Origin: Trifolium pratense
Taxonomy: Eukaryota > Streptophyta > Magnoliopsida > Fabales > Fabaceae
DNA length: 64,000 bases
NCBI RefSeq assembly: GCF_020283565.1
Contig: NC_060065.1
Coordinates: 28,136,409-28,200,408 of the forward strand
Direction: 5' to 3'
In this document: piece after piece, positions 5,605 to 61,065 of the stretch
How the letters are laid out: the number at the start of each line of letters is the position of its first letter
Position numbering within the stretch: position 1 is the stretch's first letter
The notes under the pieces: model-generated
The model's input: the letters and a program-made list of their open reading frames with translations, nothing else
Databases searched by the model: none
What the model was told of the DNA's origin: nothing
Position numbers and translations under genes: made by a program

Positions 5605-5605
<1 letters not shown>

Positions 5606-30647: not shown

Positions 30648-30648
30648 A

Positions 30649-30661
30649 TTGGCATCAGAGC
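30649..30661 (+). other. Primer binding site (initiator tRNA-Met type)
   Basis: TTGGCATCAGAGC starts one base after the LTR. It matches the usual Copia site TGGTATCAGAGC with one change (C for T). Confidence 0.8.
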
Positions 30662-30717
30662 AGGCACCCTGTTCTGAATTTTTAGGGTGAGCTCCAGGGA
30701 AACTTTTTCTGGCAAGG

Positions 30718-35661: not shown

Positions 35662-35667
35662 CAGTTA
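35659..35667 (+). promoter_or_regulatory. Readthrough stop context TAG-CAG-TTA
   Basis: The amber codon that ends gag-pol is followed by CAGTTA, fitting UAG-CAR-YYA, the context that directs readthrough in tobamoviruses and that was reported for the soybean Copia element SIRE1. The frame stays open from here into the envelope-like ORF, whose first ATG is five codons after the stop. Confidence 0.75.
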
Positions 35668-35676
35668 CAGCAGGCA

Positions 35677-37935
35677 ATGCGTGTAACTACCTCTCATCAC
35701 TTTAAGTTACACGCAAATCAAGGAAGTTCTCATTCAACTTCCCACAACCTCCTTCAACCACAATCATTACTCCTCATTCATTCTCTCTCTCACGCTCAAA
35801 AACTATCCATCTTCCGCATCAACATTTCTCCACCCTTGTCTTTTCTCAGAAAACTTCAATTCCAAATCATGTCGAACTCTGTCAAATCTTCACCAACAAA
35901 GTCAGATGCTACTCCATCACTACAAAAGGTGGTAATCGATGCTGTTCCTCTAACCACCATACCTTCCACAAGTCCAACGATGAGGAGAAAATCAGTTGCG
36001 AAAAAGGAAAAATTATCACGAACGAGCATAAATCCTTCATCTCCCTCCTCTTCAATTAAGAAAACGAAGAAGAAGAGCAAGAAATCGCGAACTGAATCGA
36101 GAAGAAGTTTTACAATGTCTGAACTGCATGTTGATCCACTTCCATCGAGTGGTGTTGCTACTCCTGTCGTAAAAGCTGCAGAGGTTAATGTTGACACATC
36201 TGGTAAGAACTCACTTAATCAAAACTCTGATGCTCCAAATTCTGTTGAAAACCTAGGTTTAGAGAAACCTACTGTGTCTGAAAATTTGGGGAAAAGTGTT
36301 CCTAACTCCCCTGTTGCTGATGATGATAATATTGGTGCTTCTACTGAGACCAATAATCCTGTTGCTAATGAGTCCATTAAGAAAACTGCTCCTGAGACAC
36401 ATGTTGCGCCGAATGTTGCAACACATGGCGCTGCGCCAAATGTGGTGCCAGATGTTACCACATCTTTGGCACAAGAAAACCTTGTGGACTATTCTGAGTC
36501 TGATGAGAGTCCCCCACCAAAGGATACTGATAAAGAAGCTGGTTCTGATAAAGTTGTGAATGAAACTCCTGAGGTGATAATTGTTAATGAAAATGAAACT
36601 ACTGTTAGTGATAAGGCTGTTCCTGCACATTCTGAAGCTAGTGTGGCTAGGAGGACTAGAAGTAGGGCTGGTAAAGCTGTAGAGACTACTAACACACCTG
36701 TCCAAACTCCCAAACCCTCTAAGACTGGAAAGGCTACTGGTAAAAAGCCTGTGTATGGACCTCCAAAACCTGTCAGTAAAGTGGTCCCTAGGTCAGAGAC
36801 CAAGAAAAGAAAAGCTCCTCCAACTAGTGATTCTGATTTTGAACCAGAGACAGATGTTGCTGCATCTGGCAGCACATCTAGGAAAAGTGTAGGAAGGAAG
36901 AAGGTTCCTCAATCTGTTCCATCTGCTCCATTAGATAATGTTTCATTTCATCTGGAAAATGGGTCTGCAAGGTGGAAGTTTGTATATCATAGAAGGTTAG
37001 CTCTGGAAAGAAATTTGAAGGCTGATATTCTTGAATGTCCTAGTGTTGTAGAAGCTCTTGAGTATGCAGGTTTGATGAAAACTGTGGTTGGTTTGGACAA
37101 GTGCTATGACAGGCTTGTGAAGGAATTTTTGATTAATGTGGCTGCAGACTGTAATGATCCAAAAAGCCCTGAATATAGGCAAGTGTTTGTTCGAGGAAAG
37201 TGTGTTCAATTCTCTCCAACTGTGATCAACCAATATTTGCAAAGGGATTCTGATGAAGTGGCTCCTCTGAAAGCCACAGATAATGAAATCTGCAAGGTCC
37301 TCACTGGAGGAAGAGTTAAAGTATGGCCAAGCAAGGCTAAGTTGTCTGCAACTTCCCTCTCTCCATTTTATGCTGTTTTGAATAGGATAGCTGCACACAA
37401 CTGGGTCCCTACAACCCATTCAGGTGATGTGGCCAGAGGATTGGGAAAGTTCATATATGCTGTGGGTACAAAGGCAAAATTTGATTATGGGTCTTATTTC
37501 TTTCAAGAAACTTTAAGCCATGCCCTGACTTATGCTGTTGAGAAGCCAGTGGCTCTCCCCACTCTGCTATGCAATATTATACTTGAACAACACCCAGATA
37601 TACTAAGAAGTTCTGATGTTCCTTGCAAAAGGAAAGGGGTGTTGGTGATTGAGCAGAGGCTGCTGGATGGGACAAATGCTGCAGCAGGTGTTGGCACATC
37701 TGTCCAGGGTGGTGTTCTTTCAAGGAAGCAGATGATTGCAGACTTGACTGAGACCAGCAGAGCACTTGAGGCCAGGAAGCTGAAAATAGACCGTGTGATT
37801 GAGGCACTCAAGGCTGAGGAAGCTACTGAGATGGCTGAGGGTGAGCCAAATGGACAAGAAGAAGAAGAGGCTAGTGAGTCTGAGGATGGTTCTGAGGATG
37901 TGATGGAGGACTCTGATGAAAGTTCTTCAATATAA
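35677..37935 (+). CDS. Envelope-like protein of the SIRE-type Copia element (752 residues)
   Basis: Starts 15 bp after the gag-pol stop, in the same frame. The first ~380 residues are low-complexity, rich in Ser, Pro, Lys and acidic residues, with basic patches (KKTKKKSKKSR). Residues about 420-650 form the globular part shared with plant 'envelope-like' or 'putative plant transposon' proteins (RWKFVYHRRLALERN, VFVRGKCVQFSPTVINQYL). The end is a short predicted coiled coil followed by an acidic tail. I see no convincing transmembrane segment or signal peptide, so a true envelope role is doubtful. Expression may be by readthrough as a Gag-Pol fusion or from its own ATG. Confidence 0.8.
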   Translation: MRVTTSHHFKLHANQGSSHSTSHNLLQPQSLLLIHSLSHAQKLSIFRINISPPLSFLRKLQFQIMSNSVKSSPTKSDATPSLQKVVIDAVPLTTIPSTSPTMRRKSVAKKEKLSRTSINPSSPSSSIKKTKKKSKKSRTESRRSFTMSELHVDPLPSSGVATPVVKAAEVNVDTSGKNSLNQNSDAPNSVENLGLEKPTVSENLGKSVPNSPVADDDNIGASTETNNPVANESIKKTAPETHVAPNVATHGAAPNVVPDVTTSLAQENLVDYSESDESPPPKDTDKEAGSDKVVNETPEVIIVNENETTVSDKAVPAHSEASVARRTRSRAGKAVETTNTPVQTPKPSKTGKATGKKPVYGPPKPVSKVVPRSETKKRKAPPTSDSDFEPETDVAASGSTSRKSVGRKKVPQSVPSAPLDNVSFHLENGSARWKFVYHRRLALERNLKADILECPSVVEALEYAGLMKTVVGLDKCYDRLVKEFLINVAADCNDPKSPEYRQVFVRGKCVQFSPTVINQYLQRDSDEVAPLKATDNEICKVLTGGRVKVWPSKAKLSATSLSPFYAVLNRIAAHNWVPTTHSGDVARGLGKFIYAVGTKAKFDYGSYFFQETLSHALTYAVEKPVALPTLLCNIILEQHPDILRSSDVPCKRKGVLVIEQRLLDGTNAAAGVGTSVQGGVLSRKQMIADLTETSRALEARKLKIDRVIEALKAEEATEMAEGEPNGQEEEEASESEDGSEDVMEDSDESSSI

Positions 37936-38769
37936 TTTCTGATGTTTTCCTTATATTTGTTTCTGATGTACTTTTGTTGTTTTTCTTTTGTTGTTCCTTT
38001 ATGGGCAAGGCCCTGGATTTCTAGATGGTCTGTAATAACTGCACACTGATGTTTGTCTATGCTCTGGTACACTACTATTTCCTATGCATGATGTTTGTCA
38101 AAATTATGGCTAAAAAGGGGGAGTAGTGTGTGTGTGTGTGACAGTGTGTGTGACAAGTGTGAAGACAGATGTTCTCACATCTGGAGACTGTTGACTGTTT
38201 TTGCATGAATTGTTCGTATGCTCGTATGCTCGTATTGAGGGGGAGTGTGAGTAATATGCATGTACTGAGGGGGAGTAGTAAATATTCTTTCTCTATCTGG
38301 TGTGTGTATGCATGAATTCAGGGGGAGTGTGAGTGATATTATCTCTTGATCGCGCCTGAATATGTTTGATGACAAATGTTGTGCCAAGTGTTATGGCACC
38401 TGACTATTGAGTCCACTATCTATTATGACTGAGAATTTATTTTTCTCAGATGTTTATGGGAATTTATTTTTCCTATTGTTCTTATGTTGATGAAATGCGC
38501 CTTAAACTATTAGGAGTTTATTTCTCCTACTACTTAGCATCTACTATGGGAGTTTATTTCTCCCTTGTGTTGTTCCATGAGGCTAGTTGTGTTTTATTCC
38601 GCTGTTGCATTGCCTCTGATGCTACTTGACTATCTTGGAAGTATTGTTTATTATGTGTTACTTTCTTTCCTAGTTGTGTGATCATGTTGACTCGAAGGAA
38701 AGGTAATACTGTATCTCTCTATATACTGGTCTAATATTGTTTTAGCCAAAATTTGCCAAAGGGGGAGAT
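37936..38769 (+). other. 3' untranslated region with five polypurine tracts
   Basis: GGGGGAG tracts occur at 38112-38123, 38236-38245, 38266-38275, about 38319-38327 and 38758-38769. Only the last abuts the 3' LTR and is the expected plus-strand primer. Multiple tracts of this kind are typical of Sireviruses. Confidence 0.85.
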
Positions 38770-39809
38770 TGTTGGGTTTTTGTATATTGGCTACATTTTG
38801 CAAAAACATATTTTAGCCAAGTGTTGAGACAAGTGTGCTGACCCCAAGTGTTGTGACAAATGTTGTGACACTTTGGAACAACACCTGACTCTGTTCTGCG
38901 CGCGCCAGCTGGATGTTATTATTTTCTACTCAATCTTTTGAAGATCTGTTTGAAGAATTATGTCAAGGTTTCTTACAGAGGAAGGCGCACGTGTTTAATG
39001 TGTTTCATGAGGCAGCTAAACCCTAGTTTTATTTTCCAAAAGAATTATATTTTTGGAAAATATATTTTTGCGGTTTCAAAAATATAACTATTGTTTTCAA
39101 AAATATATCACTGCTGCCGCAATTCTAGAAGCCCTAATTTTTCTTGAAGCCCAAGTCGTTCTACTACTATAAATACGAAGGCAAGCATATGGTTTCAAGC
39201 ATCTAAAATCGAGTCTTACAAAGCGTGTGTTTTTAGGGATTTTAGAGTGTTAATTGTGAGCCTATCTTGTGTCTCATTGATGCAAGCTTAGGACCTGAGT
39301 GTTATTGAGTTGTAAGTGTGAACTTCTCCTAAGCTTTGAAGTACGGAGATTGTTCTATTGTGTTGTGTGGTTTACTCGCAAGCTTTTAAGCAAGAGTGAA
39401 TCCTAGTTTGTAGGAGTGTGTCTCCAATCGTTGTAATCGTCTGAGTTGAATAGCAGCGCTGTCTGTGTTGCTAAGGTGGGAATTGGGACGGGGTCTCATA
39501 TCTAGGAGTTCCTAGGTAGAAGGGTCATTGGGTAGTGATTGAGTGAGAAGTTGTAAACGGGTGAGTTTAGCTTCGAAGTAATACTGCTGATAGTGGACTT
39601 CATTCCTGGATTGGTATCCCCCAGAGTAGGCTTTAGGCTGAACTGGGTTAACAACTCTCGTGTGTTATTTACTTTACTGTTTGTATTGTTTTATGTTATT
39701 TGCTCTGTTTATAGACAAGTGTTGGCGCACTAGTAACAACATCTGTCTACAACAGACAAGTGTTGCTACACCTTGAGCAACACCTGTCCACTGTGTGCCA
39801 GGAATTTCA
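38770..39809 (+). repeat. 3' LTR of the Copia element
   Basis: Same length as the 5' LTR, with the TATAAATA box at 39168-39175 and the terminal hairpin at 39755-39788. No sequence difference from the 5' LTR was noticed. Confidence 0.95.
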
Positions 39810-42285: not shown

Positions 42286-43052
42286 ATATATATATTAAAA
42301 AAAATTAGCATAAAATTTTAGAAAAATTTTGATTTCATGAATAAAAAATAATAAATCACAAAACAACATGCAAATACAAATTCCAGCCTAAATTGCAAAG
42401 ATAATTAGGGTTAACCTAATTGCAAATTATAACCCTTAGATATAAGAAAGATATTAGAAATTGTGATCAATTATGCCGTTCAAAATTTATTAAAAAACAT
42501 GGTTAACAATTTGAGTTCCTAAATTTAATCACAATTGAAGCACATGTTCTAGTGGTTTGAAGACTTTATTGCAAGCAAATGATGCGGGTTTGATTCCTTT
42601 CTATTTTCCTTCAATATTTTTTTTTTTATTTTATTTTCCTTTTCATTCTAATTGTGACTATAAATATGTGCTAAAGTGATACTAAATACATAATTCCAAT
42701 CTCAAAAAAAATAAAATCAAGTTAATTAAAATTCAAAATATTTTCTATTTGGGTATGAACAAATTAATTGACATACAAAATCTTTCCTATTTGGGTATGA
42801 ACAAATTAATTCCGCAAGATTTATTTTCAATTTTAAAATTTCGATAAGGTTAATACATGGATGACGTAATTTTAATCACAATTGATTTGCATGCCATAGT
42901 GGTTGAAAGACTTAATTTAGAGCAAGTGATCCCGGATTTGAATCTCATGTAAGACACATTTCTCTTTTTTTAGTAAATTAGATAGTGAATAAATTCCCTC
43001 CAAAACTGCATATGCAAATTAGGGTTAACCTAGTTGCATATTATAACCATTA
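42286..43052. other. Degenerate Helitron 5'-end sequences left of the array
   Basis: Two diverged copies of the Helitron 5' subterminal region, each with 'tttaatcacaattg', an A-box-like 'agtggtt' and a B-box-like element (42525-42600 and 42871-42950). Two diverged end motifs 'attagggttaacct(a)..ttgca..attataacc' end at about 42441 and 43048, the second ending directly at the CTAG of the first clear unit. No gene is present. Confidence 0.6.
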
Positions 43053-43329
43053 CTAGAACATCGACCCGTGCGATGCACGGGTCTGATTAGCTGTAAGATA
43101 TATAATGATTAAATAAGATATGATAATTACAATAATTTAAGGTATATGAAAAAAGTTGAGTAACATTAAACGATGGTTCAATATTAATTTTGGATAAATA
43201 TTCATACAAAGAAAATTATGTTATATTATGGAAGACTTCCTTATAGACCACATTCGAAGTCTTAGTCGTATCTTCATCGTCGTCATCAATGATCAATATT
43301 TTTAATCCTTTTATAGAAGTAACTCTTGA

Positions 43330-44843
43330 AATTGCAACATACAACTAACCATGTGAAAACACTGGCGGCGGAAGATATATATCCCAACATGCTTTAAAGA
43401 TTATCCCCGACTCTTATTAATAGTCATCGCAAAAGAAATCATTATAGGAAATTGTCTCCGTTGAAATTTAAAAGGAATTCTCACGTCAGATGGTGTCAAA
43501 GAAAATCTAGGTATGAAAACTTGATCACCAATATTACTTCCTGAAATAATTTTTCCTTCAAGAGCACGTTTTTCCAATCTCGTAATAATAATTCTTGTTC
43601 CATTGCATAATCCCAATTTTTGATTCAAATTCCTTAATAGCATAACTGGAACTCCAACTTTAAGTCTCAACATGTGATTTGGAAGTCCCGACGTAGAAAT
43701 CATGTTCAAAAATTCGGGAGTATGAACATCATCCATTGTTTGACCTTCTACATTTTGTGAGTGGAGTATCATAACTCAAATATGTTTTTTCATCACCGAG
43801 AATTAAATCCAACATATAATCATTTATTGTGTCGACTATTGAATTTTTAGGAGCTAGTATAACTCTATTTTGGAAATACGTTATATCGTTCATGTTTTGT
43901 AAAAGTTGGGGGTAGGTGCTTTCAACGATAGAAGCAAGAGGATCACCTGAATTTGGAGTCAATAAATCTGATGGAATGTCAAGTTCTAAATCATCGTCAT
44001 TGTCATCTCCATTTTCTCCATCACCAACACCCAAAACCCATTCAGAAAACAATCTTCTTTGTTCAACGTCTGCACTTGAAGCACCGCCGAGAAGCCTCGT
44101 GTTTTTATTCAATGTTAAAACTTCACAAAAATTCCAAAGAACCGAAGAATTAATAGTAGCATGAAAAACTTCTGGCCTTGTACCTTTGGGTATTACTGGT
44201 ATAGAATTTGTCTAAAATCTCCGCCAAAAACAACAATTTTTCCACCGAAGGGAATATGTTTATTTTTTTCATCAACAGACTTGAGAATATCTTTTAAAGT
44301 TCGACCAACAGCGTCGAAACAGTGTTTGTGCATCATTGGTGCTTCATCCCATATAATGAGCTTTGCTTTTTGTATTAATAGTGCCAAAGGACTTTTAGAA
44401 ACTATGGTACATGTTGAAAACTCGTCAACATTTAGAGGAATACAAAACCTTGAATGTGTTGTTCTACCGCCAGGTATAAGCAATGCAGCGATCCCACTTA
44501 AGACAACTGTTAAAACTATCTCACCTTTTGAGCATAATGCGACTGACATGGCGCTCCAAATAAATGTCTTCCCTGTACCACCATAACCATAAAGAAAAAA
44601 AACACCAGGTTTGTTTTCGTTAACTCTTGTCATGATTGTGTCATATATTTTACGTTGCTTTGAAGTCATAGCTGACATCAATCTAACATGTTCCTCAGCT
44701 AATGATTGTCTGTTATAATTCAATTCGTCATGTATTAAACTATTTAATGATGTGTCTGCTCTAAGCATTGGAGGATAATTTTTTAAACTCTTCCCACAAC
44801 TACGTAACATCATCTCAATATCTGTTAGTGCATATTGTATCAA
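43330..44843 (-). pseudogene. Helitron PIF1-like helicase, unit 1a
   Basis: Reads from about 44843 to 43330. Walker A GYGGTGKT, Walker B IIWDEAPM and FGGDFRQIL are in the first piece (44193-44843). A 2 bp insertion at about 44212 shifts the frame; the middle (43729-44112) and last (43401-43772) pieces are also out of register with each other. In the conserved INKSQGQS motif CAA has become TAA. Such 5'-3' helicases unwind DNA during rolling-circle transposition. This copy is dead. Confidence 0.88.
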
Positions 44844-45430
44844 TTGATCATCAATTAATATTAAATCTGCAATGTTAAAATCAAAATAATGAATGTGATT
44901 AGTGACATGACCATGGTTATGTTTGGTTGTATTGCAAAAAAAAAATTGATTTAGCAGAATTGAGTTTGATAGATTTGATTTTGGTTAAAAGTGAGTTAAA
45001 CAAAATTGATTTATGTTTGAATATATTAACGTAAAAATAAAGGGTCTTTATAAAAAATATCAATTCTTTTTCCATTTTTTTTTTGACAAAATTCTTTTTC
45101 CAATTTTAAAAAACTTCAATTTAATAAACTGCATAATAAACTCCAATTACATGAGACATTGAAATGTGAAAGATGTTTTTTTTTTTTAATAGATTTCAAT
45201 ATTGTTGAAGGTATTATAGTATGAGAATATATATATAACTTTCCAAATCACACGTGATAATAACTTTCCAAATCTCACATGATAATTATTCTCTAAATTT
45301 ATGATTCGGTAGAAAAAAAATCATTGATCAGGAAAGACATAAAAATATTTTGTGATGAATAATATAGTCAACAATAATTTTGATATGACATACTTTTAAA
45401 ATTGATGGTGCTTATCCATTATTGCACATA

Positions 45431-45530
45431 ATTTTAATCACAATTGGTATACTTGACATAGTGGTTGGAAATATTGTCTTGCACTGAAGGGTCGAGGGTT
45501 CGAATCCAAGTCAAGACAAAATTGTATTAT
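45431..45530 (+). repeat. tRNA-like A-box/B-box module in Helitron 5' region (one of six)
   Basis: The A-box-like TTGACATAGTGGTTGG (about 45453-45468) and B-box GGGTTCGAATCC (45496-45507) are spaced as in a tRNA-derived Pol III promoter, on the strand opposite to RepHel. Other copies: 46925-47010, 52047-52130, 57151-57166 continued at 60384-60450 (split by the LINE), and diverged ones at 42525-42600 and 42871-42950. Confidence 0.7.
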
Positions 45531-45625
45531 TTTTTAATAAAAATTGCAAGATAAAATGGAGGGAAAACAGGGAAAACAAATTAGGGTTTAGAGTTTGCTT
45601 GTGTATACAAGCTTATAATATAAAC

Positions 45626-47142
45626 TTGTGTTTTTATTCAATGTTAAAACTTCACAAAAATTCCAAAGAACCGAAGAATTAATAGTAGCATGAAAAACTT
45701 CTGGCCTTGTACCTTTGGGTATTACTGGTATAGAATTTGTCTAAAATCTCCGCCAAAAACAACAATTTTTCCACCGAAGGGAATATGTTTATTTTTTTCA
45801 TCAACAGACTTGAGAATATCTTTTAAAGTTCGACCAACAGCGTCGAAACAGTGTTTGTGCATCATTGGTGCTTCATCCCATATAATGAGCTTTGCTTTTT
45901 GTATTAATAGTGCCAAAGGACTTTTAGAAACTATGGTACATGTTGAAAACTCGTCAACATTTAGAGGAATACAAAACCTTGAATGTGTTGTTCTACCGCC
46001 AGGTATAAGCAATGCAGCGATCCCACTTAAGACAACTGTTAAAACTATCTCACCTTTTGAGCGTAATGCGACTGAGATGGCGCTCCAAATAAATGTCTTC
46101 CCTGTACCACCATAACCATAAAGAAAAAAAACACCAGGTTTGTTTTCGTTAACTCTTGCCATGATTGTGTCATATATTTTACGTTGCTTTGAAGTCATAG
46201 CTGACATCAATCTAACATGTTCCTCAGCTAATGATTGTCTGTTATAATTCAATTCGTCATGTATTAAACTATTTAATGATGTGTCTGCTCTAAGCATTGG
46301 AGGATAATTTTTTAAACTCTTCCCACAACTACGTAACATCATCTCAATATCTGTTAGTGCATATTGTATCAATTGATCATCAATTAATATTAAATCTGCA
46401 ATGTTAAAATCAAAATAATGAATGTGATTAGTGACATGACCATGGTTATGTTTGGTTGTATTGCAAAAAAAAAATTGATTTAGCAGAATTGAGTTTGATA
46501 GATTTGATTTTGGTTAAAAGTGAGTTAAACAAAATTGATTTATGTTTGAATATATTAACGTAAAAATAAAGGGTATTTATAAAAAATATCAATTCTTTTT
46601 CCATTTTTTTTTTGACAAAATTCTTTTTCCAATTTTAAAAAACTTCAATTTAATAAACTCCAATTACATGAGACATTGAAATGTGAAAGATGTTTTTTTT
46701 TTTAATAGATTTCAATATTGTTGAAGGTATTATAGTATGAGAATATATATATAACTTTCCAAATCTCACATGATAATTATTCTCTAAATTTATGATTCGG
46801 TAGAAAAAAAATCATTGATCAGGAAAGACATAAAAATATTTTGTGATGAATAATATAGTCAACAATAATTTTGATATGACATACTTTTAAAATTGATGGT
46901 GCTTATCCATTATTGCACATAATTTTAATCACAATTGGTATACTTGACATAGTGGTTGGAAATATTGTCTTGCACTGAAGGGTCGAGGGTTCGAATCCAA
47001 GTCAAGACAAAATTGTATTATTTTTTAATAAAAATTGCAAGATAAAATGGAGGGAAAACAGGGAAAACAAATTAGGGTTTAGAGTTTGCTTGTGTATACA
47101 AGCTTATAATATAAAATGTATACAAGCTTATAATATAAAAGA
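45626..47142 (-). mobile_element. Helitron unit 1b, lacking its 3' end
   Basis: A 1.5 kb tandem copy of the right part of unit 1a (offset 1529 bp), beginning inside the helicase gene. The last ~24 bp (tgtatacaagcttataatat) of the terminus are repeated once more at about 47117-47142. Confidence 0.85.
45722..46372 (-). pseudogene. Helitron helicase N-terminal part, unit 1b
   Basis: A near-identical copy of the 44193-44843 piece (Walker A, Walker B and FGGDFRQIL present), with the same 2 bp frameshift at its end. The rest of the gene is absent because the unit starts at the junction 45626. Confidence 0.88.
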
Positions 47143-47309
47143 TATACTAGAACATCGACCCGTGCGGTGCACGAGTCTAATTAGCTGTAAAATATATAAT
47201 GATTAAATAAGATATGATAATTCCAATAATGTAAGGTATATGAAAAAAGTTGAGTAACATTAAATGATAGTTCAACAATAATTTTGGATAAATATTCATA
47301 CAAAGAAAA

Positions 47310-50300
47310 TTATGTTATATTACGGAAGACTTCCTTATAGACCACATTCGAAGTCTTAGTCGTATCTTCACCGTCGTCATCGATGATCAATATTTTTAAT
47401 CCTTTTCTAGAAGTAACTCTTGAAATTGCAAGATACAACTGACCATGTGAAAACACTGGCGACGAAAGATATATCCCAACATGCTTTAAAGATTGTCCCT
47501 GACTCTTATTAATAGTCCTCAAAAGAAATCATTATAGGAAATTGTCTCCGTTGAAATTTAAAAGGAATTCTCACCTCAGATGATGTCAGAGAAAATCTAG
47601 GTATGAAAACCTGATCACCAATATTACTTCATGAAATAATTTTTCCTTCAAGAGCACGTTTTCCCAATCTCATAATAATAAGTCTTGTTCCATTGCATAA
47701 TCATAATTTTTTATTCAAATTTCTTAATAGTGTAACGACCCAATTTTCAAATTATTAATTTTTATGTGTTAAAACATTTTATTAACGTAGAATTTTAATT
47801 AAGTTAATAACTTGAGTTATTTACCGAGTACTTTAGTTATTAAGCGAGTAGTGAGAGATAACGTGTTATTGGGCCAAGCCAACTGGGCTTGAGGCCCAAT
47901 GGGCCTTGTGTGTGTGTGGGGTGCCATATGGCCATGAGTGGGAGAGAAATTCATTATTCTCTTTTGTTCTTGTGAGTTCTTGAGAGAAGGGAGAGCTTGG
48001 GAGCTAGGGCAAGAAGAAGAGCTAGAGATTCAAGATCTTTTCATCGAGTTTTCTTCGAATCCAGGTATGAGAGTAGGTTCCATAATCGTGGGTGACCCGA
48101 GGAAGGGGAGAATGTCGATTTCTCCTCACCCGAACTTTCTTCACCCCATTTTCGTTTTAGCTTAGAACGGATTTTCTTGATGGAAATCGTTCCTAAGGTT
48201 CTTAATATGTTTAACATGCTTTTAACATGATTAATGAACGGATTTAAGGGTTAAAAACGAGTTTTATAAGAGATTAAACTCAAGAACTTTGTGTTCTTGA
48301 GAGTTTTGATGAAAAAGTGTTCAATCTTTACTTTTTCGATGTTTATGATGTAGATCTGATAAATGAACTGTCCTTTTGTGTTTATCTATGTTTGTTATGT
48401 TTGAATACAAACTCTTTTGGGATTTATAACATGAAAAATGGGATTTTTGGGTGATTTGGTGTAGAAAACGCAAGTTTTGAACTGTCCTGACAGGAGGCAC
48501 TCGCTAGGCCTTCGCTCAGCGAACGTGTGGCGAACAGCTCGCCACGAGCAGGTGTCTTCCTGGCGTTGTTCGCTTAGGCTCGCTAAGCCTTCGCTCAGCG
48601 AATAGTTCGCTGATGTTCGCTGATGCTCGCTATGAGTTAGCATTTCTCTAGTAGCGTTCGCTGATGCTCGCTACCCTTCGCTTAGCGAACAGTACTGGAC
48701 CTGCAACTTTTTGTTAATGTTTGTAAGTGTAATTAGGCACTTGTAACATGGTTTAATGATATTCTTACATGATTGTTGATGCATGTTGATGCTTATAATG
48801 CTCATTGCTAATCGTTAATTGATTGTTAATCATGTATGAAGTATAAATGAAGAATATTAAGGTTTTGTTAAATCTTAATGATGAAGTATGTTGGATAGTG
48901 TTCCATATAGTAAATGAAGAGCTTTATGCTATATAATTGTGAGTGAATTCATGAAAAACATATACATGCATTCATGAATTAAATAGGATATTGGATATTC
49001 CAATAAAGAAGTATATCGGATTATATTTATCCGATAAAGAAGGATATTAGAGGTGAGATACTCTAATAAAGAAGATGGTACCACATGCATTAGAAATGTC
49101 TAGGGTGACATTCATGAAGTTGAAGCATTAGAGTCGCATTAGGCTATGTGTGCATTTTATGATAAATGATATGTGACACATGTTTGGCTAATTGTGGTAT
49201 TTGATAATTGATAATTGATTGTGTGAGTATTCGATTATATGTGTTTATGTACTTATAATGGAATGATAGATGTTGATGAATATGTATAGATGTATGATAT
49301 ATGCATGAATATTGAGAAGTGTTTAAGTACCGTTTTACTTACACTTATATTTTGATTATGTGATCTAACTCTCATGCTTTGTGTTATGTGCTGGACCGTT
49401 GGGGGTTCAGATTCTCAGGTTGAGGATCCCGATCAGAGTTAGAGGATTGCTCGTGCTCGTGGTAGTGCGCTTTTTGGTGAGGAGTTTAGCTTAGACTACT
49501 CCTTAGATATATTTTGTATATCTTTTTGATGGGTTGTATAGAATTGCTCTGATTAGGTTTTACTGTGTCGGGTTATTCGAATTGAATTGTATTAAGCCCG
49601 TGATGGCATACTTAACTTTGCTAATCCTATCTTTTGTTGTAAACATAATATCCTTGTTGTTGATATGGCCTAGAGCCTAGGGATATTATGTGAACAATTA
49701 TGTTGATTGTATGATATGCACTATGTTTAATTATTTGTTTTTAATTTCCGCTGTGCTAGCATGACGCGTTTATGCCGTGATTTCGTATTATAACATGTGA
49801 CGCCTGAATTTTCTTAAGTGTTTTATTTATTTATATTTAACAAATTCTCGTTAAGGGGTTTGGGTGTTACAAATAGCATAACTGAAACTCCAACTTTAAG
49901 TCTCAACTTGTGATTTGGAAGTCCCGACGTAGAAATCGTGTTCAAAAATTTGGGAGTATGAACATCATCCACTGTTTGACCGTCTATATTTTGTGTGAGT
50001 GGAGTATCATAACTCAAATATGTTTTTTCTTCACCAGGAATTAAATCCAACATATAATCATTTATTGTGTCGACTATTGAATTTTTAGGAGCTAGTATAG
50101 CTCTATTTTGGAAATATGTTATATCGTTCATGTTTCGTAAAAGTTGGGGATAGGTGCTTTCAACGATAGAAGCAAGAGGATCACCTGAATTTGGAATCAA
50201 TAAATCTGATGGAATGGCAAGTTCTAAATCATCATCGTTGTCATCTCCAATTTCTCCATCGCCAACACCCAAAACTCATTCAGAAAACAAACGTCTACAC

Positions 50301-51378
50301 TCGAAGCACCACCGTGAAGCATCATGTTTTTACTCAATGTTAAAACTTCACAAAAATTCCAAAGAACCGAAGAATTAATAGTAGCATGAACAACTTCTGG
50401 CCTTGTACCTTTGGGTATTACTGGTAGAATTTGTATAAAATTTCCGCCAAAAACAACAACTTTTCCAACGAAGGGAATGTGTTTATTTTTTTCATCAACA
50501 GACTTGAGAATATCTTTTAAAGTTCGATCAACAACTTCGAAACAGTGTTTGTGCATCATTGGTGCTTCGAAACAGTGCTTTTTGTATTAATAGCGCCAAA
50601 GGGCTTTTAGGAACTATGGTACATGTTGAAAACTCGTCAACATTTAGAGGAATACAAAACCTTGAATGTGCTGTTCTACCGCCAGGTATAAGCAATGCAG
50701 CGATCCCACTTGAGGCAACTGTTAAAACTATCTCACCTTTTAAGCGTAATGCGGCTGACATGGTCCTCCAGATAAATGTTTTCCCTGTACCGCCATAACC
50801 ATAAATACTGGTTTGAGGAAAACCAATATATGAGCATGTGGCAGTCCATGTTTTTGAAACTCAATAGTATATATAACTGTAAAAAAAAAATAGAATTAAA
50901 ATTAATGCCAAATAGTTCATATACAATTAAAATTTAAAAGTTAATTGGACCAATTATACCAACTATATAAAAGGATGAAAAATAAGATTTGTAAAATTAA
51001 CTGTTTACGTGCTCTAATTTCACCAAATATTTTTCCTTTCTTGATCTCCTTAATCAAACGGTCAACTTTGATCTTGAAAATTCTGCTCGATAAATCCGGT
51101 CTATCTTCTGGCTTAAGATTGCACGGTTTCAAAAAGTCAACTACTTCAGGCCATTCATAATTACATGTAAAGGTGATGAATAAATCAGGATAATCAATCC
51201 ATCCACAAATTGCCATAGCATCCTGATAATTTTGAATCATGTACCTTGGTCCTCCTGCAAAAGATGATGGCAACACCACTCTTTTTCCCATTGTAGATGA
51301 ATCAGTCTCTCCTCTAAGAATTGCCTCACGGAGGCCCTTATACATATCAGCCCTTACATCCTTTTGGTGATCTGACAT
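47310..51378 (-). pseudogene. RepHel fragments of Helitron unit 2
   Basis: Order on the minus strand: Helitron-like N-terminal/Rep region 51378-50941 (MSDHQKDVRADMYKGLREAI.., FITFTCNYEWPE), a probable intron, an exon with the HUH motif as GLPHAHIL (about 50828-50847), then an abrupt join to the helicase just after Walker A (about 50815-50761), helicase pieces to 49877, the solo LTR, and helicase C-terminus 47725-47310 (INKSQGQSLKHVG). The Walker B segment has been replaced by a copy of 'cttcgaaacagtg' at about 50566. Several frame changes are present. It cannot make an active transposase. Confidence 0.85.
47731..49871 (+). mobile_element. Tekay-like solo LTR in Helitron unit 2
   Basis: TGTAACGACCC..GGGTGTTACA, 2141 bp, with TSD AATAG at 47726-47730 and 49872-49876. 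It is in opposite orientation to the related LTR at 25781-27899. It interrupts the helicase gene. Confidence 0.95.
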
Positions 51379-52408
51379 ATCAGCCCTTACATATCAGCCC
51401 TTATACATATCAATTTCAGGAATAAAGATAATAAATCACAAAACAGAATGAAAGTTTATACACACCTCTGAGTAAATTAAGTCGAATTGTGGTGAAGTTG
51501 TTAACATAGACATTGAAATGTGAAAGATGTTTTTTTTTTTAATAGATTTCAATATTGTTGCAGGTGTTATAGTATGAAAATATATATATAACTTTCCAAA
51601 TCACACGTGATAATAACTTTCCAAATCTCACATGATAATTATTCTCTAAATTTATGATCTGGTAGAAAAAAAATCGTTGACCAGGAAAGGCATAAAATAT
51701 TTCGTGATGAATAATATAGTCAACAATAATTTTGATATGATATACTTTTAAAATTGATGAAGCATTTTAAATAAAAAATAATTTCTTTTATCAAATTAGT
51801 TGCATCTGACAAAAAAATAAAATAAAACATCTATTTATACGTACCTAAAAATTTTATAGTTTTGCAAAATTGCACAACCAATATGACCAGAGTCAAATTG
51901 TCAGAATTTGCAAACACGTTATCAAGCTTATTAGCATAATCACCCAAATAGAACAGTGAATACGGTTAGATCTACAAAAAACAATAAGGAATGTTAATAA
52001 ATATAAAGGAAATTATTGACGGTGCTTATCAATTATTGCACATAATTTTAATCACAATTGGTATACTTGACATAGTGGTTGGAAATATTGTCTTGCACTG
52101 AAGGGTCGAGGGTTCGAATCCAAGTCAAGACAAAATTGTATTATTTTTTAATAAAAATTGCAAGATAAAATGGAGGGAAAACAGGGAAAACAAATTAGGG
52201 TTTAGAGTTTGCTTGTGTATACAAGCTTATAATATAAAAGATATACTAAAACATCGACCCGTGCGGTGCACGAGTCTGATTAGCTGTAAAATATATAATG
52301 ATTAAATAAGATATGATAATTCCAATAATGTAAGGTATATGAAAAAAGTTGAGTAACATTAAATGATAGTTCAACAATAATTTTGGATAAATATTCATAC
52401 AAAGAAAA

Positions 52409-55400
52409 TTATGTTATATTACGGAAGACTTCCTTATAGACCACATTCGAAGTCTTAGTCGTATCTTCACCGTCGTCATCAATGATCAATATTTTTAATC
52501 CTTTTCTAGAAGTAACTCTTGAAATTGCAAGATACAACTGACCATGTGAAAACACTGGCGACGAAAGATATATCCCAACATGCTTTAACGATTGTCCCTG
52601 ACTCTTATTAATAATCCTCAAAAGAAATCATTATAGGAAATTGTCTCCGTTGAAATTTAAAAGGAATTCTCACCTCAGATGATGTCAGAGAAAATCTAGG
52701 TATGAAAACCTGATCACCAATATTACTTCATGAAATAATTTTTCCTTCAAGAGCACGTTTTCCCAATCTCATAATAATAAGTCTTGTTCCATTGCATAAT
52801 CCTAATTTTTTATTCAAATTTCTTAATAGTGTAACGACCCAATTTTCAAATTATTAATTTTTATGTGTTAAAACATTTTATTAACGTAGAATTTTAATTA
52901 AGTTAATAACTTGAGTTATTTACCGAGTACTTTAGTTATTAAGCGAGTAGTGAGAGTTAACGTGTTATTGGGCCAAGCCAACTGGGCTTGAGGCCCAATG
53001 GGCCTTGTGTGTGTGTGGGGCGCCATATGGCCATGAGTGGGAGAGAAATTCATTATTCTCTTTTGTTCTTGTGAGTTCTTGAGAGAAGGGAGAGCTTGGG
53101 AGCTAGGGCAAGAAGAAGAGCTAGAGATTCAAGATCTTTTCATCGAGGTTTCTTTGAATCCAGGTATGAGAGTAGGTTCCATAATCGTGGGTGACCCGAG
53201 GAAGGGGAGAATGTCGATTTCTCCTCACCCGAACTTTCTTCACCCCATTTTCGTTTTAGCTTAGAACGGATTTTCTTGATGGAAATCGTTCCTAAGGTGC
53301 TTAATATGTTTAACATGCTTTTAACATGATTAATGAAAGGATTTAAGGGTTAAAAACGAGTTTTATAAGAGATTAAACTCAAGAACTTTGTGTTCTTGAG
53401 AGTTTTGATGAAAAATTGTTCAATCTTTACTTTTTCGATGTTTATGATGTAGATCTGATAAATGAACTGTCCTTTTGTGTTTATCTATGTTTGTTATGTT
53501 TGAATACAAACTCTTTTGAGATTTATAACATGAAAAATGGGATTTTTGGGTGATTTGGTGTAGAAAACGCAAGTTTTGAACTGTCCTGACAGGAGGCACT
53601 CGCTAGGCCTTCGCTCAGCGAACGTGTGGCGAACAGCTCGCCACGAGCAGGTGTCTTCCTGGCGTTGTTCGCTTAGGCTCGCTAAGCCTTCGCTCAGCGA
53701 ATAGTTCGCTGATGTTCGCTAATGCTCGCTATGAGTTAGCATTTCTCTGGTAGCGTTCGCAGATGCTCGCTACCCTTCGCTTAGCGAACAGTACTGGACC
53801 TGCAACTTTTTGTTAATGTTTGTAAGTGTAATTAGGCACTTGTAACATGGTTTAATGGTATTCTTACATGATTGTTGATGCATGTTGATGCTTATAATGC
53901 TCATTGCTAATCGTTAATTGATTGTTAATCATGTATGAAGTATAAATGAAGAATATTAAGGTTTTGTTAAATCTTAATGATGAAGTATGTTGGATAGTGT
54001 TCCACATAGTAAATGAAGAGCTTTATGCTATATAATTGTGAGTGAATTCATGAAAAACATATACATGCATTCATGAATTAAATAAGATATTGGATATTCC
54101 AATAAAGAAGTATATCGGATTATATTTATCCGATAAAGAAGGATATTAGAGGTGAGATACTCTAATAAAGAAGATGGTACCACATGCATTAGAAATGCCT
54201 AGGGTGACATTCATGAAGTTGAAGCATTAGAGTCGCATTAGGCTATGTGTGCATTTTATGATAAATGATATGTGACACATGTTTGGCTAATTGTGGTATT
54301 TGATAATTGATAATTGATTGTGTGAGTATTCGATTATATGTGTTTATGTACTTATAATGGAATGATAGATGTTGATGAATATGTATAGATGTATGATATA
54401 TGCATGAATATTGAGAAGTGTTTAAGTACCGTTTTACTTACACTTATATTTTGATTATGTGATCTAACTCTCATGCTTTGTGTTATGTGCTGGACCGTTG
54501 GGGGTTCAGATTCTCAGGTTGAGGATCCCGATCAGAGTTAGAGGATTGCTCGTGCTCGTGGTAGTGCGCTTTTTGGTGAGGAGTTTAGCTTAGACTACTC
54601 CTTAGATATATTTTGTATATCTTTTTGATGGGTTGTATAGAATTGCTCTGATTAGGTTTTACCGTGTCGGGTTATTCGAATTGAATTGTATTAAGCCCGT
54701 GATGGCATACTTAACTTTGCTAATCCTATCTTTTGTTGTAAACATAATATCCTTGTTGTTGATATGGCCTAGAGCCTAGGGATATTATGTGAACAATTAT
54801 GTTGATTGTATGATATGCACTATGTTTAATTATTTGTTTTTAATTTCCGCTGTGCTAGCATGACGCGTTTATGCCGTGATTTCGTATTATAACATGTGAC
54901 GCCTGAATTTTCTTAAGTGTTTTATTTATTTATATTTAACAAATTCTCGTTAAGGGGTTTGGGTGTTACAAATAGCATAACTGAAACTCCAACTTTAAGT
55001 CTCAACTTGTGATTTGGAAGTCCCGACGTAGAAATCGTGTTCAAAAATTTGGGAGTATGAACATCATCCACTGTTTGACCGTCTATATTTTGTGTGAGTG
55101 GAGTATCATAACTCAAATATGTTTTTTCTTCACCAGGAATTAAATCCAACATATAATCATTTATTGTGTCGACTATTGAATTTTTAGGAGCTAGTATAGC
55201 TCTATTTTGGAAATATGTTATATCGTTCATGTTTCGTAAAAGTTGGGGATAGGTGCTTTCAACGATAGAAGCAAGAGGATCACCTGAATTTGGAATCAAT
55301 AAATCTGATGGAATGGCAAGTTCTAAATCATCATCGTTGTCATCTCCAATTTCTCCATCGCCAACACCCAAAACTCATTCAGAAAACAAACGTCTACACT

Positions 55401-56478
55401 CGAAGCACCACCGTGAAGCATCATGTTTTTACTCAATGTTAAAACTTCACAAAAATTCCAAAGAACCGAAGAATTAATAGTAGCATGAACAACTTCTGGC
55501 CTTGTACCTTTGGGTATTACTAGTAGAATTTGTCTAAAATTTCCGCCAAAAACAACAACTTTTCCAACGAAGGGAATGTGTTTATTTTTTTCATCAACAG
55601 ACTTGAGAATATCTTTTAAAGTTCGATCAACAACTTCGAAACAGTGTTTGTGCATCATTGGTGCTTCGAAACAGTGCTTTTTGTATTAATAGCGCCAAAG
55701 GGCTTTTAGGAACTATGGTACATGTTGAAAACTCGTCAACATTTAGAGGAATACAAAACCTTGAATGTGTTGTTCTACCGCCAGGTATAAGCAATGTAGC
55801 GATCCCACTTAAGGCAACTGTTAAAACTATCTCACCTTTTAAGCGTAATGCGGCTGACATGGTCCTCCAGATAAATGTTTTCCCTGTACCGCCATAACCA
55901 TAAATACTGGTTTGAGGAAAACCAATATATGAGCATGTGGCAGTCCACGTTTTTGAAACTCAATAGTATATATAACTGTAAAAAAAAAAATAGAATTAAA
56001 ATTAATGCCAAATAGTTCATATACAATTGAAATTTAAAAGTTAATTGGACCAATTATACCAACTATATAAAAGGATGAAAAATAAGATTTGTAAAATTAA
56101 CTATTTACGTGCTCTAATTTCACCAAATATTTTTCCTTTCTTGATCTCCTTTATCAAACGGTCAACTTTGATCTTGAAAATTCTGCTCGATAAATTCGGT
56201 CTATCTTCTGGCTTAAGATTGCACGGTTTCAAAAAGTCAACTACTTCAGGCCATTCATAATTACATGTAAATGTGATGAATAAATCAGGATAATCAATCC
56301 ATCCACAAATTGCCATAGCATCCTGATAATTTTGAATCATGTACCTTGGTCCTCCTGCAAAAGATGATGGCAACACCACTCTTTTTCCCATTGTAGATGA
56401 ATCAGTCTCTCCTCTAAGAATTGCCTCACGGAGGCCCTTATACATATCAACCCTTACATCCTTTTGGTGATCTGACAT
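52409..56478 (-). pseudogene. RepHel fragments of Helitron unit 3
   Basis: Same arrangement and same lesions as unit 2: Rep region 56478-56101, HUH exon at about 55927-55946, join to Walker A, missing Walker B, solo LTR, and C-terminus 52621-52409. A few substitutions separate the two copies (for example RADMYK / RVDMYK). Confidence 0.85.
52830..54970 (+). mobile_element. Tekay-like solo LTR in Helitron unit 3
   Basis: 2141 bp, TSD AATAG at 52825-52829 and 54971-54975, at the same position in the helicase as in unit 2. It differs from that copy by scattered substitutions only, so it was copied with the unit rather than inserted twice. Confidence 0.95.
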
Positions 56479-57166
56479 ATCAGCCCTTACATATCAGCCC
56501 TTATACATATCAATTTCAGGAATAAAGATAATAAATCACAAAACATAATGAAAGTTTATACACACCTCTGAGTAAATTAAGTCGAATTGTGGTGAAGTTG
56601 TTAACATGAGACATTGAAATGTGAAAGATGTTTTTTTTTTTAATAGATTTCAATATTGTTGCAGGTATTATAGTATGAAAATATATATATAACTTTCCAA
56701 ATCACACATGATAATAACTTTCCAAATCTCACATGATAATTATTCTCTAAATTTATGATCTGGTAGAAAAAAAATCGTTGATCAGGAAAGGCATAAAAAT
56801 ATTTCGTGATGAATAATATAGTCAACAATAATTTTGATATGATATACTTTTAAAATTGATGAAGCATTTTAAATAAAAAATAATTTCTTTTATCAAATTA
56901 GTTGCATCTGACAAAAAAATAAAATAAAACATCTATTTATACGTACCTAAAAATTTTATAGTTTTGTAAAATTGCACAACCAATATGACCAGAGTCAAAT
57001 TGTCAGAATTTGCAAACACGTTATCAAGCTTATTAGCATAATCACCCAAATAGAACAGTGAATACGGTTAGATCTACAAAAAACAATAAGGAATGTTAAT
57101 AAATATAAAGGAAATTATTGACGGTGCTTATCAATTATTGCACATAATTTTAATCACAATTGGTAT

Positions 57167-60100
57167 TGAACATACCAATTGTGATTAGACTCAAGGCAGG
57201 GGATAATTACATTGAGGACATTAATGATATTGAACATCATGTGTTAAATTTTTACAAAGAATTATTTGCTAGTAACAATAATTGTGCTCCTACTAATATT
57301 ATTGAGCGCACTATACCTCATCTTATAACTGTTGCAGATAATGATATGATGACCAAAATTCCTTCTTTTGAAGAAGTTAAGCAAGCTGTTTTTAATATGG
57401 ATGGTTCTTCTTCACCCGGCCCTGATGGTTTTGGGGGATGTTTTTTTCAAAATTATTGGGATATTGTTGGCAGTGATGTTGTGGCCTCGGTCACTCAATT
57501 CTTTAGTCAAGGTTGGATTTTACCCAATCTGAATTCAAGTCATGTGGCTATTGTTCCTAAATTTCCAGGCGCGGATACTATTGAAAATTTTAGACCAATC
57601 GCGGTGGCAAATTTTCAATTCAAAATTATTACAAAAATTTTGGCGGATAGACTTGCGGTGATTGCTCCTAAAATTGTTTCAGAACATCAAAGAGGGTTTG
57701 TACAAGGAAGACACATTTATGAATGCATTTGTATAGCCTCCGAGGCCATTAACATGTTGGACAAAAAATCTTTCGGTGGTAATATGGCTATGAAAATAGA
57801 CATTAAAAAGGCTTTTGATACTTTAGATTGGAGTTTCCTTCTCAAAGTACTACAGGCTTTTGGCTTTAATCATAAATTTTGTTCTTGGATTTCCACTATT
57901 CTTCATTCTGCAAAATTGTCACTCTTGATTAATGGTAAAACTGTTGGCTTTTTCGGCTGTTCTAGAGGAGTCAGACAAGGGGACCCCTTATCCCCTCTTC
58001 TTTTTTGTATTGCAGAAGAAGTGTTGAGCAGACATCTTTCTCTTCTTGTGGATGCTAACAAGTTAAGTTGCATTACTTCAGGTAGAACTATTCTTCCTAG
58101 CCACTCTTTTTTTGCTGATGACTTGATGATTTTTTGTAAAGCTACTAAAAAAAATGCTAGAAACATTCATGATTTGTTGGAAGAATATGGTGCTAACTCG
58201 GGCCAGAGGGTTAGTCCTCATAAGAGCAAACTTTATGGAGGCTCTATTAGTCCTACCAGATTAAATACTTTGTCCAATACTCTTGGATTTTCTTTGGGTT
58301 CATTACCTTTTGACTATCTTGGAGTTCCTATCTTTAAAGGGAAGCCCAAAAACATTCATCTTCAGGCTTTAGCAGATAGAGTCAAATCTAAACTTGCTTC
58401 TTGGAAGGGTCATTCTTTGTCTATGATGGGAAGAGTTCAACTTGTTAATTCTGTGATTCATGGCATGTTGACTTATAGCTTCAAGGTCTATATCTGGCCT
58501 AAAGGTTTGATTAAGCAGATGGATCGTTGTATTAGAAATTTTATTTGGTCTGGAAATGTAGATAAGAAGAAATTGGTCTCTCTATCTTGGGACAAAGTTT
58601 GTACTCCTACTTCAGCTGGTGGTCTTGGGTTGAGAAAACTAAAAGACATGAACAAAGCTGGTTGTCTTAAACTTTGTTGGGACTTAATCAAATCTGACAA
58701 ACAATGGGCTATCACTCTTAAAAGCAGATTTTTTTCGTAATTCTAGCCCCATCAATCATGCGATTTCATCATCTATTTGGTCAAGTTTGAAAAATGTTTT
58801 ACATTTGGTTCGTGATCATAGTATTTGGCAAATTGGTAATGGTTTATCTACTTCATTTTGGAATGATAATTGGCTTGGTTACAAATTAAAAGACTTAATT
58901 TTAGAGCCACTTCCTAATCCTATTTCGCATCTAGTGAATGCCAAAGTTGCAGAAGTCGTTCATAATCAAGTTTGGGCTTTACCTGAAATTTTTAAACAAC
59001 AATTTCCTATTATTACTTGTGATATTCATGCTCTTTCTCTCCCATCCATATCGGAACCAGACGAATTAGTATGGGAAGATTCTATCTCTGGAGAATTGAC
59101 TTTTAAACTTGCATATTCTTGTGATATGCAGCCCCCTCAATGTATCGGCTGGACCAAGTTCATCTGGAAACTGTTTATTCCTCCTTCTAGATCTTTAGTT
59201 GCTTGGAGAATTATGCACAATGTTATTGCCACTGATGATAACTTGATCAAAAGAGGCCTCACGATTGTTTCTTGTTGCAGTCTTTGTGGTAGTAGTTACG
59301 AAACTGTTACTCATTTGTTCTTGCGCTGCCCCTTTATAATGCAGTATTGGAACTGGTTATCTTCTTTGCTAGGCATGCCTCTTGATCTCTCAAATTTTGA
59401 TTCCCTTCTTGGCATATGTAACAAAGGTTGGAGTCCTCAATTACATGATCTCATTATTGCAGCCATTGTCAATATTTTATGGAAGGTCTGGAAATGCAGG
59501 AACAATGTCAGATTTAATGATATTTATCCCTATTTTTCTCGTGATCTGATCTATGTGAAAAGTCTTATTCATCAAGCAGCCCATTATTCCAAAGGTCACA
59601 TGTACTCATCTATAAAAGAATTTTCTATCCTCAAGCATTTTGGTGTTGATTGTCATCCTCCCCCTCCGCCATCTATTAAACAAGTCAATTGGATCATGCC
59701 TCCTAGTTTTTGGGTGAAGTGCAATACTGATGGAGCCTCTAGAGGTTCTCCAGGTATTTCTTCTTGTGGTGGCATCTTTAGAGACCATCTTGGTACTTTT
59801 TTAGGTGCATTTTCGGCTAACATTGGTGTTGCAACCTCTCTTTATGCTGAAATTTGCGCTGCAATTTATGCTATTGAATTTGCTTCTGCTAAAGGATGGA
59901 CCCGTCTTTGGCTTGAATGTGACTCTATCCTCTTAGTTCAAGCTTTCACTAATGTGAATGTGGTCCCTTGGAAGCTGAAGGTTAAATGGAAAAATTGTCT
60001 TCATATTGTTAGGAATTTTCGTTTTAGATTTTCTCATATTTATAGAGAAGGAAATACTTGTGCAGACAGATTAGCTAATGCGGGTTTTTTTGTTGATGGG

Positions 60101-60370
60101 TTAGTCTGGTGGGATCAATTACCAAGTTGCTCTAGAGAGAGTTTCTTTAGAGATAGAGTTGGTTTGTCTAATTATCGCTTTCGTTAATCTTGTTTTGGTG
60201 GGTTTGGTTTATGCCCCCCCCACCCTTTCTTTTGTTTTTTCATTCTAATAATACTTTTGGTGAGATGGTAGAGGAGTGGTAGTTCATTGAGGTGCCAACA
60301 TAGTTGGGATGTCGATGACTTACTATGATGCCATGCTCTCCATTTTTGAAAAAAAAAAAAAAAAAAAAAA
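57167..60370 (+). mobile_element. 5'-truncated L1-type LINE
   Basis: Flanked by the 13 bp duplication tcacaattggtat (57154-57166 and 60371-60383). It ends in a ~20 bp A run (60349-60370). The 5' part (ORF1 and endonuclease) is missing. The left ~20 bp are an inverted copy of target sequence (see findings). It interrupts the tRNA-like module of Helitron unit 3. Confidence 0.93.
57188..60187 (+). pseudogene. LINE reverse transcriptase / RNase H, one frameshift
   Basis: Frame 57160-58740 carries the RT domain: SSPGPDGFGG, FRPIAVANFQFK, GFVQGRHI, MKIDIKKAFDTLDW, GVRQGDPLSPLLF and the catalytic FADDLMIF near 58108-58131. A run of seven T at about 58730-58736 shifts the frame and gives TAA. The next frame (to 60187) holds the zinc-binding RT tail (LVAWRIMHN..CSLCGSSYETVTHLFLRC) and an RNase H domain with NTDGASRG, AEICAAIYA, LECDS and NTCADRLAN. 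Apart from that single shift and the missing N-terminus the coding region is open, so the insertion is not very old. Confidence 0.92.
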
Positions 60371-60560
60371 TCACAATTGGTATACTTGGCATAGTGGATG
60401 GAAATATTGCCTTGCATTGAAAGGTTGTGGGCTCGAATCATAGTCAAGACTAAATTGTATTATTTTTTAATAAAAATTGCAAGATAAAATGGGGGGAAAA
60501 CAGAGAAAACAAATTAGGGTTTAAAGTTTGCTTGTGTATACAAACTTATAATATAAAAGA

Positions 60561-60965
60561 TAAGAAAGATTCAAACATTTGGTCTCCCTTTTCATTTAGC
60601 CTTCAATTTTGATGATTTGACGCATTCTTTAAATGACATGACATATTAAATAAATTCTTTAAATACATGCTTATGTTTAGGAAAACCACAATAATTAAAT
60701 AAATTTAATATGCCGTGACAGCCACATTAGCATATATCATGCGTCATTTCATTTAAAGAATGTGTCATGTCATCAAAATTGAAAGATAAATAAAAAGGGG
60801 ACTAATTGTCTGGATTTTTCAAAATAGAGATAAAAAATGCACAAAGAAAAGGGACTTAAATTGCTCATTTTTTAGAATAGGGGACCAAAATTGAGCAAAA
60901 TAAAATAGGAGGACCAAAATTGCACATTTTTTAAAATAGGGAGACTAAAACTGCATTTAAGTCTT
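60561..60965. mobile_element. Mutator-type foldback MITE, left end incomplete
   Basis: The right arm ends 'agactaaaactgcatttaag' and contains 'accaaaattg' phrases. Inner arms 'caattttgatgatttgacgc' (about 60606) and its inverse at about 60745-60785 fold back. The left terminus is missing where the Helitron array ends. Same family as 21657-21813. Confidence 0.65.
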
Positions 60966-61065
60966 ATAATTATTATGTTATTTTTCTTCCATTTTTACAG
61001 ATAAATATTAATGATTAATTTGTTAGATAAGAGGTAATTTGTTATCAGCGGCCTCCTTCTTAAAA

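Follow-up and report, generated by a model that had tools for sequence, protein, structure and literature searches.

A head-to-tail array of three Helitrons in Trifolium pratense, probably enlarged by unequal homologous exchange

We analysed a 64,000-nucleotide stretch of the Trifolium pratense genome (C7:28136409-28200408, hereafter the window, which contains zero N), in which self-comparison and a motif scan identified a head-to-tail array of three minus-strand Helitron units, named U1, U2 and U3 (Table 1). Read on the plus strand, the 5′ ends of the units appear as GA at 47141-47142, 52240-52241 and 60559-60560; the corresponding 3′ ends have their first plus-strand base at 43053, 47147 and 52246. 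Successive units are joined through the same four bases, TATA, at 47143-47146 (junction J12) and 52242-52245 (junction J23), exactly where the initial annotation had placed them. U1 is itself compound, comprising a nearly complete copy (U1a) and the 5′ part of a second one (U1b), so that the array holds four 5′ regions but three 3′ ends. U1, U2 and U3 begin with the 5′ TC typical of Helitrons (element-strand start TCTTTTATATTATAAG), the outer 3 nt being absent from U1a. The 3′ ends of U1 and U2 conform to the CTRR rule (CTAG), whereas the plus-strand CTAA of U3 at 52246 reads TTAG on the element strand and falls outside it. A short hairpin is predicted near the 3′ end of all three units (-7.8 to -12.3 kcal/mol, DNA parameters), and the flanks of the array keep an A before the 5′ end and a T after the 3′ end, i.e., insertion between A and T. 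Coding remnants are fragmentary with broken frames (Helitron_like_N in U2 and U3, together with pieces of PIF1 and Pif1_2B). By their ends and helicase remnants, U1, U2 and U3 are Helitrons.

U2 proved to be a mosaic of its two neighbours. We restricted the counts to six homologous blocks, starting at 52217, as the full alignment is unsuitable: it misaligns a 24-bp duplication in U1b, with 52241-52240 appearing spuriously U3-like, and pairs a long stretch where U1 has no solo long terminal repeat (LTR). Over the 5′ tract, U2 matched U1 at 148/148 positions and U3 at 134/148. In the block that contains the switch, agreement was 49/49 with U3 and 52/54 with U1, and the other four blocks gave 253/256, 476/481, 453/453 and 578/584 against U3, compared with 221/231, 452/481, 424/451 and 551/584 against U1. 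Informative sites at which U2 agreed with U1 rather than U3 stood at 14:0 in the 5′ tract and at 5:93 in the other five blocks (Fisher P 5e-14). Fifteen successive sites from 52225 to 52070 join U2 to U1, after which U2 agrees with U3 from 52031. U2 carries the single switch inside homology that is expected of unequal homologous exchange, and is therefore the product expected from such an exchange between the 5′ ends of adjacent Helitrons.

A 3′-end pattern allowing CTAG or CTAA, run over the whole assembly (413,558,439 bases, 90 contigs), returned 243 exact matches. The first listed places and a few close pairs formed a non-random sample of 25 loci (L009-L033), against which, as a background control, the 5′ tract of U2 was compared using matches that covered at least 85% of the query. 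U2 is 100% identical to both U1a and U1b over 173 bp, and because the next best sampled copy reached only 93.1%, the identity between the 5′ ends of U1 and U2 is local and special, as is that between the bodies of U2 and U3. In the same control, the 5′ tract of U3 was 91.7% identical to those of U1 and U2. Over the 3′ end, U1 and U3 agreed at 551/584 positions, and eight sampled copies matched the 3′ end of U1 as well as or better than U2 and U3 did (93.7-95.0%); U1 and U3 therefore look related only as members of one family are.

The bodies of U2 and U3 are identical at 4879/4918 positions, with three 1-bp gaps and 39 substitutions (Kimura two-parameter distance 0.008), which at a rate of 1.3e-8 per site and year gives a rough figure of 0.3 million years of divergence. 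The initial annotation had the two units aligning over their full length; this holds for the bodies but not for the 5′ ends, whose outermost 177 bp agree at only 162/177 positions, and U3 carries a long interspersed nuclear element (LINE)-type insertion. High identity crosses J12 into the 5′ end of U1 (46892-52064 versus 52015-57166), and the limits of the repeat therefore do not coincide with the termini. Homology running past the termini into host DNA, as in a plain segmental duplication, had been named as grounds for abandoning a Helitron concatemer; in the self-alignment it does run past them, into the neighbouring Helitron but not into host DNA. Both bodies share a solo LTR at the same site, a site that was empty in 24/24 testable copies (22 loci) within the 25 sampled loci, L017, L025 and L029 having no testable pair of sides. 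Three stop-bounded helicase frames also have equal boundaries in U2 and U3 (49823/54922, 50224/55323 and 50528/55627). A further copy of the solo LTR, 91% identical and in the opposite orientation, lies at window 25781-27899.

Table 1. Features of the Helitron array (window coordinates; a dot marks features without strand)
Feature	Position	Strand	Description
U1, Helitron unit (insertion B)	43053..47142	-	3′ CTAG, hairpin, PIF1 helicase fragments (Pfam PIF1, Pif1_2B); internally partly duplicated
U1a, nearly complete copy	43053..45624	-	5′ end without outer 3 nt, abuts U1b
U1b, 5′ part of second copy (~1.5 kb)	45625..47142	-	stops at internal position; 1486/1491 identical to U1a apart from gaps
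24-bp tandem duplication at U1b 5′ terminus	47094..47141	-	read from sequence
J12 junction, spacer TATA	47143..47146	.	self-comparison, motif scan
U2, mosaic Helitron unit	47147..52241	-	5′ tract U1-type, body U3-type; 3′ CTAG
Solo LTR in U2 (TG...CA), 2141 bp	47731..49871	-	5-bp target duplication AATAG
~255-bp block in U2 and U3, missing from U1	51760..52014	.	sequence comparison
U2 switch interval, U1-like to U3-like (inferred exchange point)	52031..52070	-	informative sites
J23 junction, spacer TATA	52242..52245	.	read as copy of J12 junction
U3, Helitron unit (insertion A)	52246..60560	-	element-strand 3′ end TTAG; own divergent 5′ end
Solo LTR in U3, same site as in U2, 2141 bp	52830..54970	-	same AATAG duplication
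LINE-type insertion, U3 only	~57167..60368	+	3.2 kb; RVT_1, zf-RVT, RVT_3; A-rich 3′ tail; ~15-bp target duplication

We propose a four-step account of the array, to which we assign a probability of about 87%. Two Helitrons of one family, different and already diverged from each other, would first have landed in an AT-rich target, both in the same orientation and at A^T sites separated by 4 bp, giving A[U_A]TATA[U_B]T. A solo LTR would then have formed in U_A and its helicase frames would have decayed, as the features common to U2 and U3 suggest. Subsequently, the 5′ ends of U_A and U_B would have undergone unequal homologous exchange within 52031-52070, giving a second copy of the U_A body and, with it, of the single junction, in the order U3 (5′ A + body A), TATA, U2 (5′ B + body A), TATA, U1 (5′ B + body B). 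Finally, U2 and U3 would have diverged, U3 would have acquired its TTAG end and U1 its partial tandem duplication; these differences are directly visible, their order partly conjectural, and the LINE may have entered U3 either earlier or later than the exchange. The recurrence of the same 4-bp junction thus most likely reflects one junction copied once, and U2 and U3 need no Helitron replication. The sequence alone is compatible with crossing over as well as with another route of homologous repair. The initial annotation had offered two mechanisms, readthrough during rolling-circle replication and amplification of a unit with its spacer; the mosaic and the copied junction favour amplification, and the U1-type 5′ end of U2 speaks against readthrough.

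Several points weigh against this account. In the one haplotype of one accession at hand, neither a two-unit parental allele nor an empty site nor a reciprocal product was seen. A dimer that had formed beforehand and moved as a whole may also be compatible with the data, and gene conversion of the U2 5′ end by U1 would give an identical mosaic. Beyond the 5′ tract, U2 sides with U1 at five informative sites, and a fourth helicase frame is unequal between U2 and U3 (150 versus 130 amino acids). The 24-bp terminal duplication of U1b is missing from U2, so it arose later or was lost there. The LINE insertion site falls inside the exchange interval, an unexplained coincidence.

Among the alternatives, a non-crossover tandem duplication, by break-induced replication, by single-strand annealing, or by gene conversion of the U2 5′ end after some other duplication, would yield the same mosaic. 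A family member elsewhere in the genome (L030, element strand 3942-7167) carries a 1.6-kb internal tandem duplication of 99.2% identity with short matching bases at the join, in keeping with such a route. If the conversion were separate, however, two events would be required, whereas one exchange would cover the junction, the mosaic and the number of units, and we regard this origin as unlikely. Less probable still is that the three units inserted independently of one another, each at the next A^T site along a TA run. The array flanks do obey A[TC...]T, a TTATATATATAATGG-like target is conceivable, and Helitrons in this genome do land in or beside Helitrons. However, the solo LTR with its target duplication, missing from 24/24 other testable copies, the 99.2% identity of the U2 and U3 bodies and their three shared decayed frames would not be expected from separate insertions, which also leave the 5′ mosaic unexplained; we rejected this possibility for the solo LTR and decayed frames common to U2 and U3.

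Rolling-circle readthrough, in which replication of a single Helitron ran on beyond the terminator to leave the concatemer U3-TATA-U2-TATA-U1, would account for the head-to-tail order and the identical spacer. Tandem Helitrons have been adduced in favour of rolling-circle transposition (PMC5876387), and failed termination has been proposed as a source of local Helitron duplication (PMC10701932). Readthrough predicts, however, that U2 should carry the 5′ end of U3, but it carries that of U1. The divergence between U1 and U3 is on a par with that of other sampled family members, and the units are not copies of one element throughout. Moreover, the perfect junctions described in bats join CTAG directly to TC (PMC2267711), whereas four bases intervene here. 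The 5′-end mosaic together with the background control led us to reject readthrough for U2 and U3, and as an origin of the whole array it is very improbable. An assembly artefact or false haplotype duplication is hardly credible either, for even if the assembly is that of red clover HEN17-A07, which is highly heterozygous (PMC9650271), and the 0.8% divergence between U2 and U3 could be allelic in size, a mere haplotype switch should not join a U1-type 5′ end to a U3-type body where the similarity over a few hundred bp is ~92%. In addition, 39 substitutions and a 3.2-kb insertion separate U2 from U3, the window is free of N, and the HEN17-A07 assembly was built from high-fidelity (HiFi) reads (PMC9650271).

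The change from CTAG to CTAA at J23 had initially been suggested as a cause of impaired termination and hence of the array. This idea found no support, because CTAG is present in U1, in U2 and in 100/100 among the matches listed (of 243), and an exchange needs no failed terminator. The plus-strand CTAA of U3 is most plausibly a point mutation that this single copy acquired later.

We then considered the origin of the first junction in the light of neighbouring Helitrons elsewhere, for which 98 of the 100 listed 3′ ends were sampled (C1:16301432 and C1:16625541 being left out). A T directly followed all 98/98 sampled 3′ ends, and an A directly preceded 18/18 matched 5′ ends, a 19th match, the 3′/5′ fusion at L009, having been set aside. 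Helitron sequence was present within 230 bases in 6/98 flanks (L009, L011 twice, L083, L090 and L104), and in three of the six (L009, L011 and L083/L105) a Helitron 5′ end in the same orientation started at most 10 bases away. At L009, the insertion splits another Helitron at the A^T formed by nt 7 and 8 of its 5′ end, both halves being present, and the partner units are 89.6-91.8% alike, i.e., at about background. At L011, where only the downstream half was checked, this half starts at the same nt 8. The L083/L105 pair is separated by a 2-bp spacer, TA, and its units gave no self-match at E 1e-8. A Helitron in the opposite orientation sits inside the 5′ end of another at L024, again with both halves present, and the recipient halves at L009 and L024 show no evident duplicated bases. 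Where Helitrons of the sample lie next to each other, they seem to have inserted independently, at A^T sites within AT-rich 5′ ends. None of the six Helitron-bearing flanks among the 98 sampled 3′ ends had the 4-bp TATA junction (0/6). The other sampled adjacent pairs have other spacings, and the TATA spacer fits the A^T insertion rule. With U1 and U3 no more alike than family members in general, the first junction probably goes back to two insertions at A^T sites separated by 4 bp. In 3/25 loci, Helitrons lie within the first ~100 nt of the 5′ ends of others (L009:2100-5030, L011:4930-5060 and L024:4160-5480). The Helitron 5′ end may be a recurrent landing site for other Helitrons.

The internal structure of U1 differs from that of the rest of the array. 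The segment 44096-45624 is repeated at 45625-47115, with 1486/1491 identical positions excluding three gaps (12, 1 and 25 bp); the BLAST identity of 97.2% counts these gaps, and substitutions alone amount to 5/1491. On inspection, no clear homology was seen at the join between U1b and U1a. A form in which several 5′ ends share one 3′ end, here those of U1b and U1a, occurs in U1 only. Arrays of this form described by Xiong, Dooner and Du are reportedly centromeric, going by the title of their paper; the window lies at C7:28.14-28.20 Mb. On our analysis, the duplication in U1 is the only part of the array that resembles rolling-circle arrays as summarised in a review, and deletion in a longer array or plain duplication also explains the two-copy form. 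It is tempting to speculate, albeit tentatively and with low confidence, that U1b-U1a represents an in-place, two-copy early stage of multiple-5′/single-3′ arrays. A nick at the Helitron 5′ end would prime re-copying of ~1.5 kb, synthesis would halt at an internal site, and the new strand would be joined to the displaced 5′ end with 3 nt trimmed. If true, U1b-U1a would be the result of rolling-circle-type re-replication at the donor site with no circle. We keep this 5′-anchored re-replication as a weak reading because the duplication in L030 is of similar size and has its edge away from the terminus, at ~nt 152-161.

A single ~60-nt stretch of the Helitron 5′ region holds the exchange interval, the LINE site of U3 and the edge of the L030 duplication. 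In the same 5′ regions, GGTTCGAATCC occurs on the plus strand at window 45497, 46988 and 52111 (U1a, U1b and U2, respectively), a motif that we take to resemble the B box of transfer RNA (tRNA) genes. A tRNA gene in the Helitron 5′ ends was discarded as a candidate, no tRNA being found by ARAGORN (bacterial code) or Rfam in 43000-61000. Just outside the 5′ end of U3, an inverted repeat at window 60597-60788 has weak matches to plant microRNA precursors, far below the cut-offs, and is possibly related to miniature inverted-repeat transposable elements in kind. Elsewhere in the window, a Copia-type element (29607-39809) appears young, with identical 1041-bp LTRs and an apparent 5-bp duplication, TCTTT; it has an open reading frame (ORF) for a 1647-amino-acid polyprotein and a 752-amino-acid ORF with PF20167 (Transposase_32) before the 3′ LTR.

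Altogether, a head-to-tail array with a repeated identical junction, a type of structure cited as a sign of rolling-circle replication, can be explained by homologous exchange when the 5′ ends are set side by side. Comparison of 5′-end mosaics is a simple test that could be applied to other tandem Helitrons, and 5′ ends acting as recurrent landing places, as hinted at here, could seed such arrays. Tandem Helitrons, dimers of transposable elements (TEs), a proposed failure of termination and unequal exchange are all known themes in the literature as far as available; among titles on Helitron tandems in Trifolium or red clover none concerned this locus, which says little.

The closest parallels are unequal exchanges between TE copies (PMC12628747), including Cassandra arrays (PMC7215508), in which, as here, a short tandem gains a unit and the junction is copied along. 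Unlike in the available accounts of those cases, the proposed exchange point in the Helitron array is mapped to 40 bp within the 5′ ends, and the exchange would have involved separate insertions of two different Helitrons, with 4 bp between them. Unequal crossing over has likewise been invoked for repeat blocks within rice Mothra Helitrons (PMC4683698). Adjacent Helitrons in the same orientation in maize were ascribed in 2008 to independent insertions and not to rolling-circle repeats (PMC2267711), similar to our view of the first junction; the maize pair has no spacer (CTAG/TC), whereas TATA lies between the units described here and a later duplication made a third. The tandem Helitrons of Myotis (Pritham and Feschotte, via PMC2267711) are also arranged head-to-tail, but with perfect junctions, in contrast to the four spacer bases and to U1 and U3 being no closer than family members. 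Finally, multiple-5′/single-3′ Helitron arrays have been explained by rolling-circle amplification (Xiong, Dooner and Du 2016, via PMC12628747). U1 is like them in having two 5′ regions and one 3′ end, with the truncated 5′ copy upstream, and differs in holding only two copies, with one breakpoint 3 nt inside the 5′ terminus.

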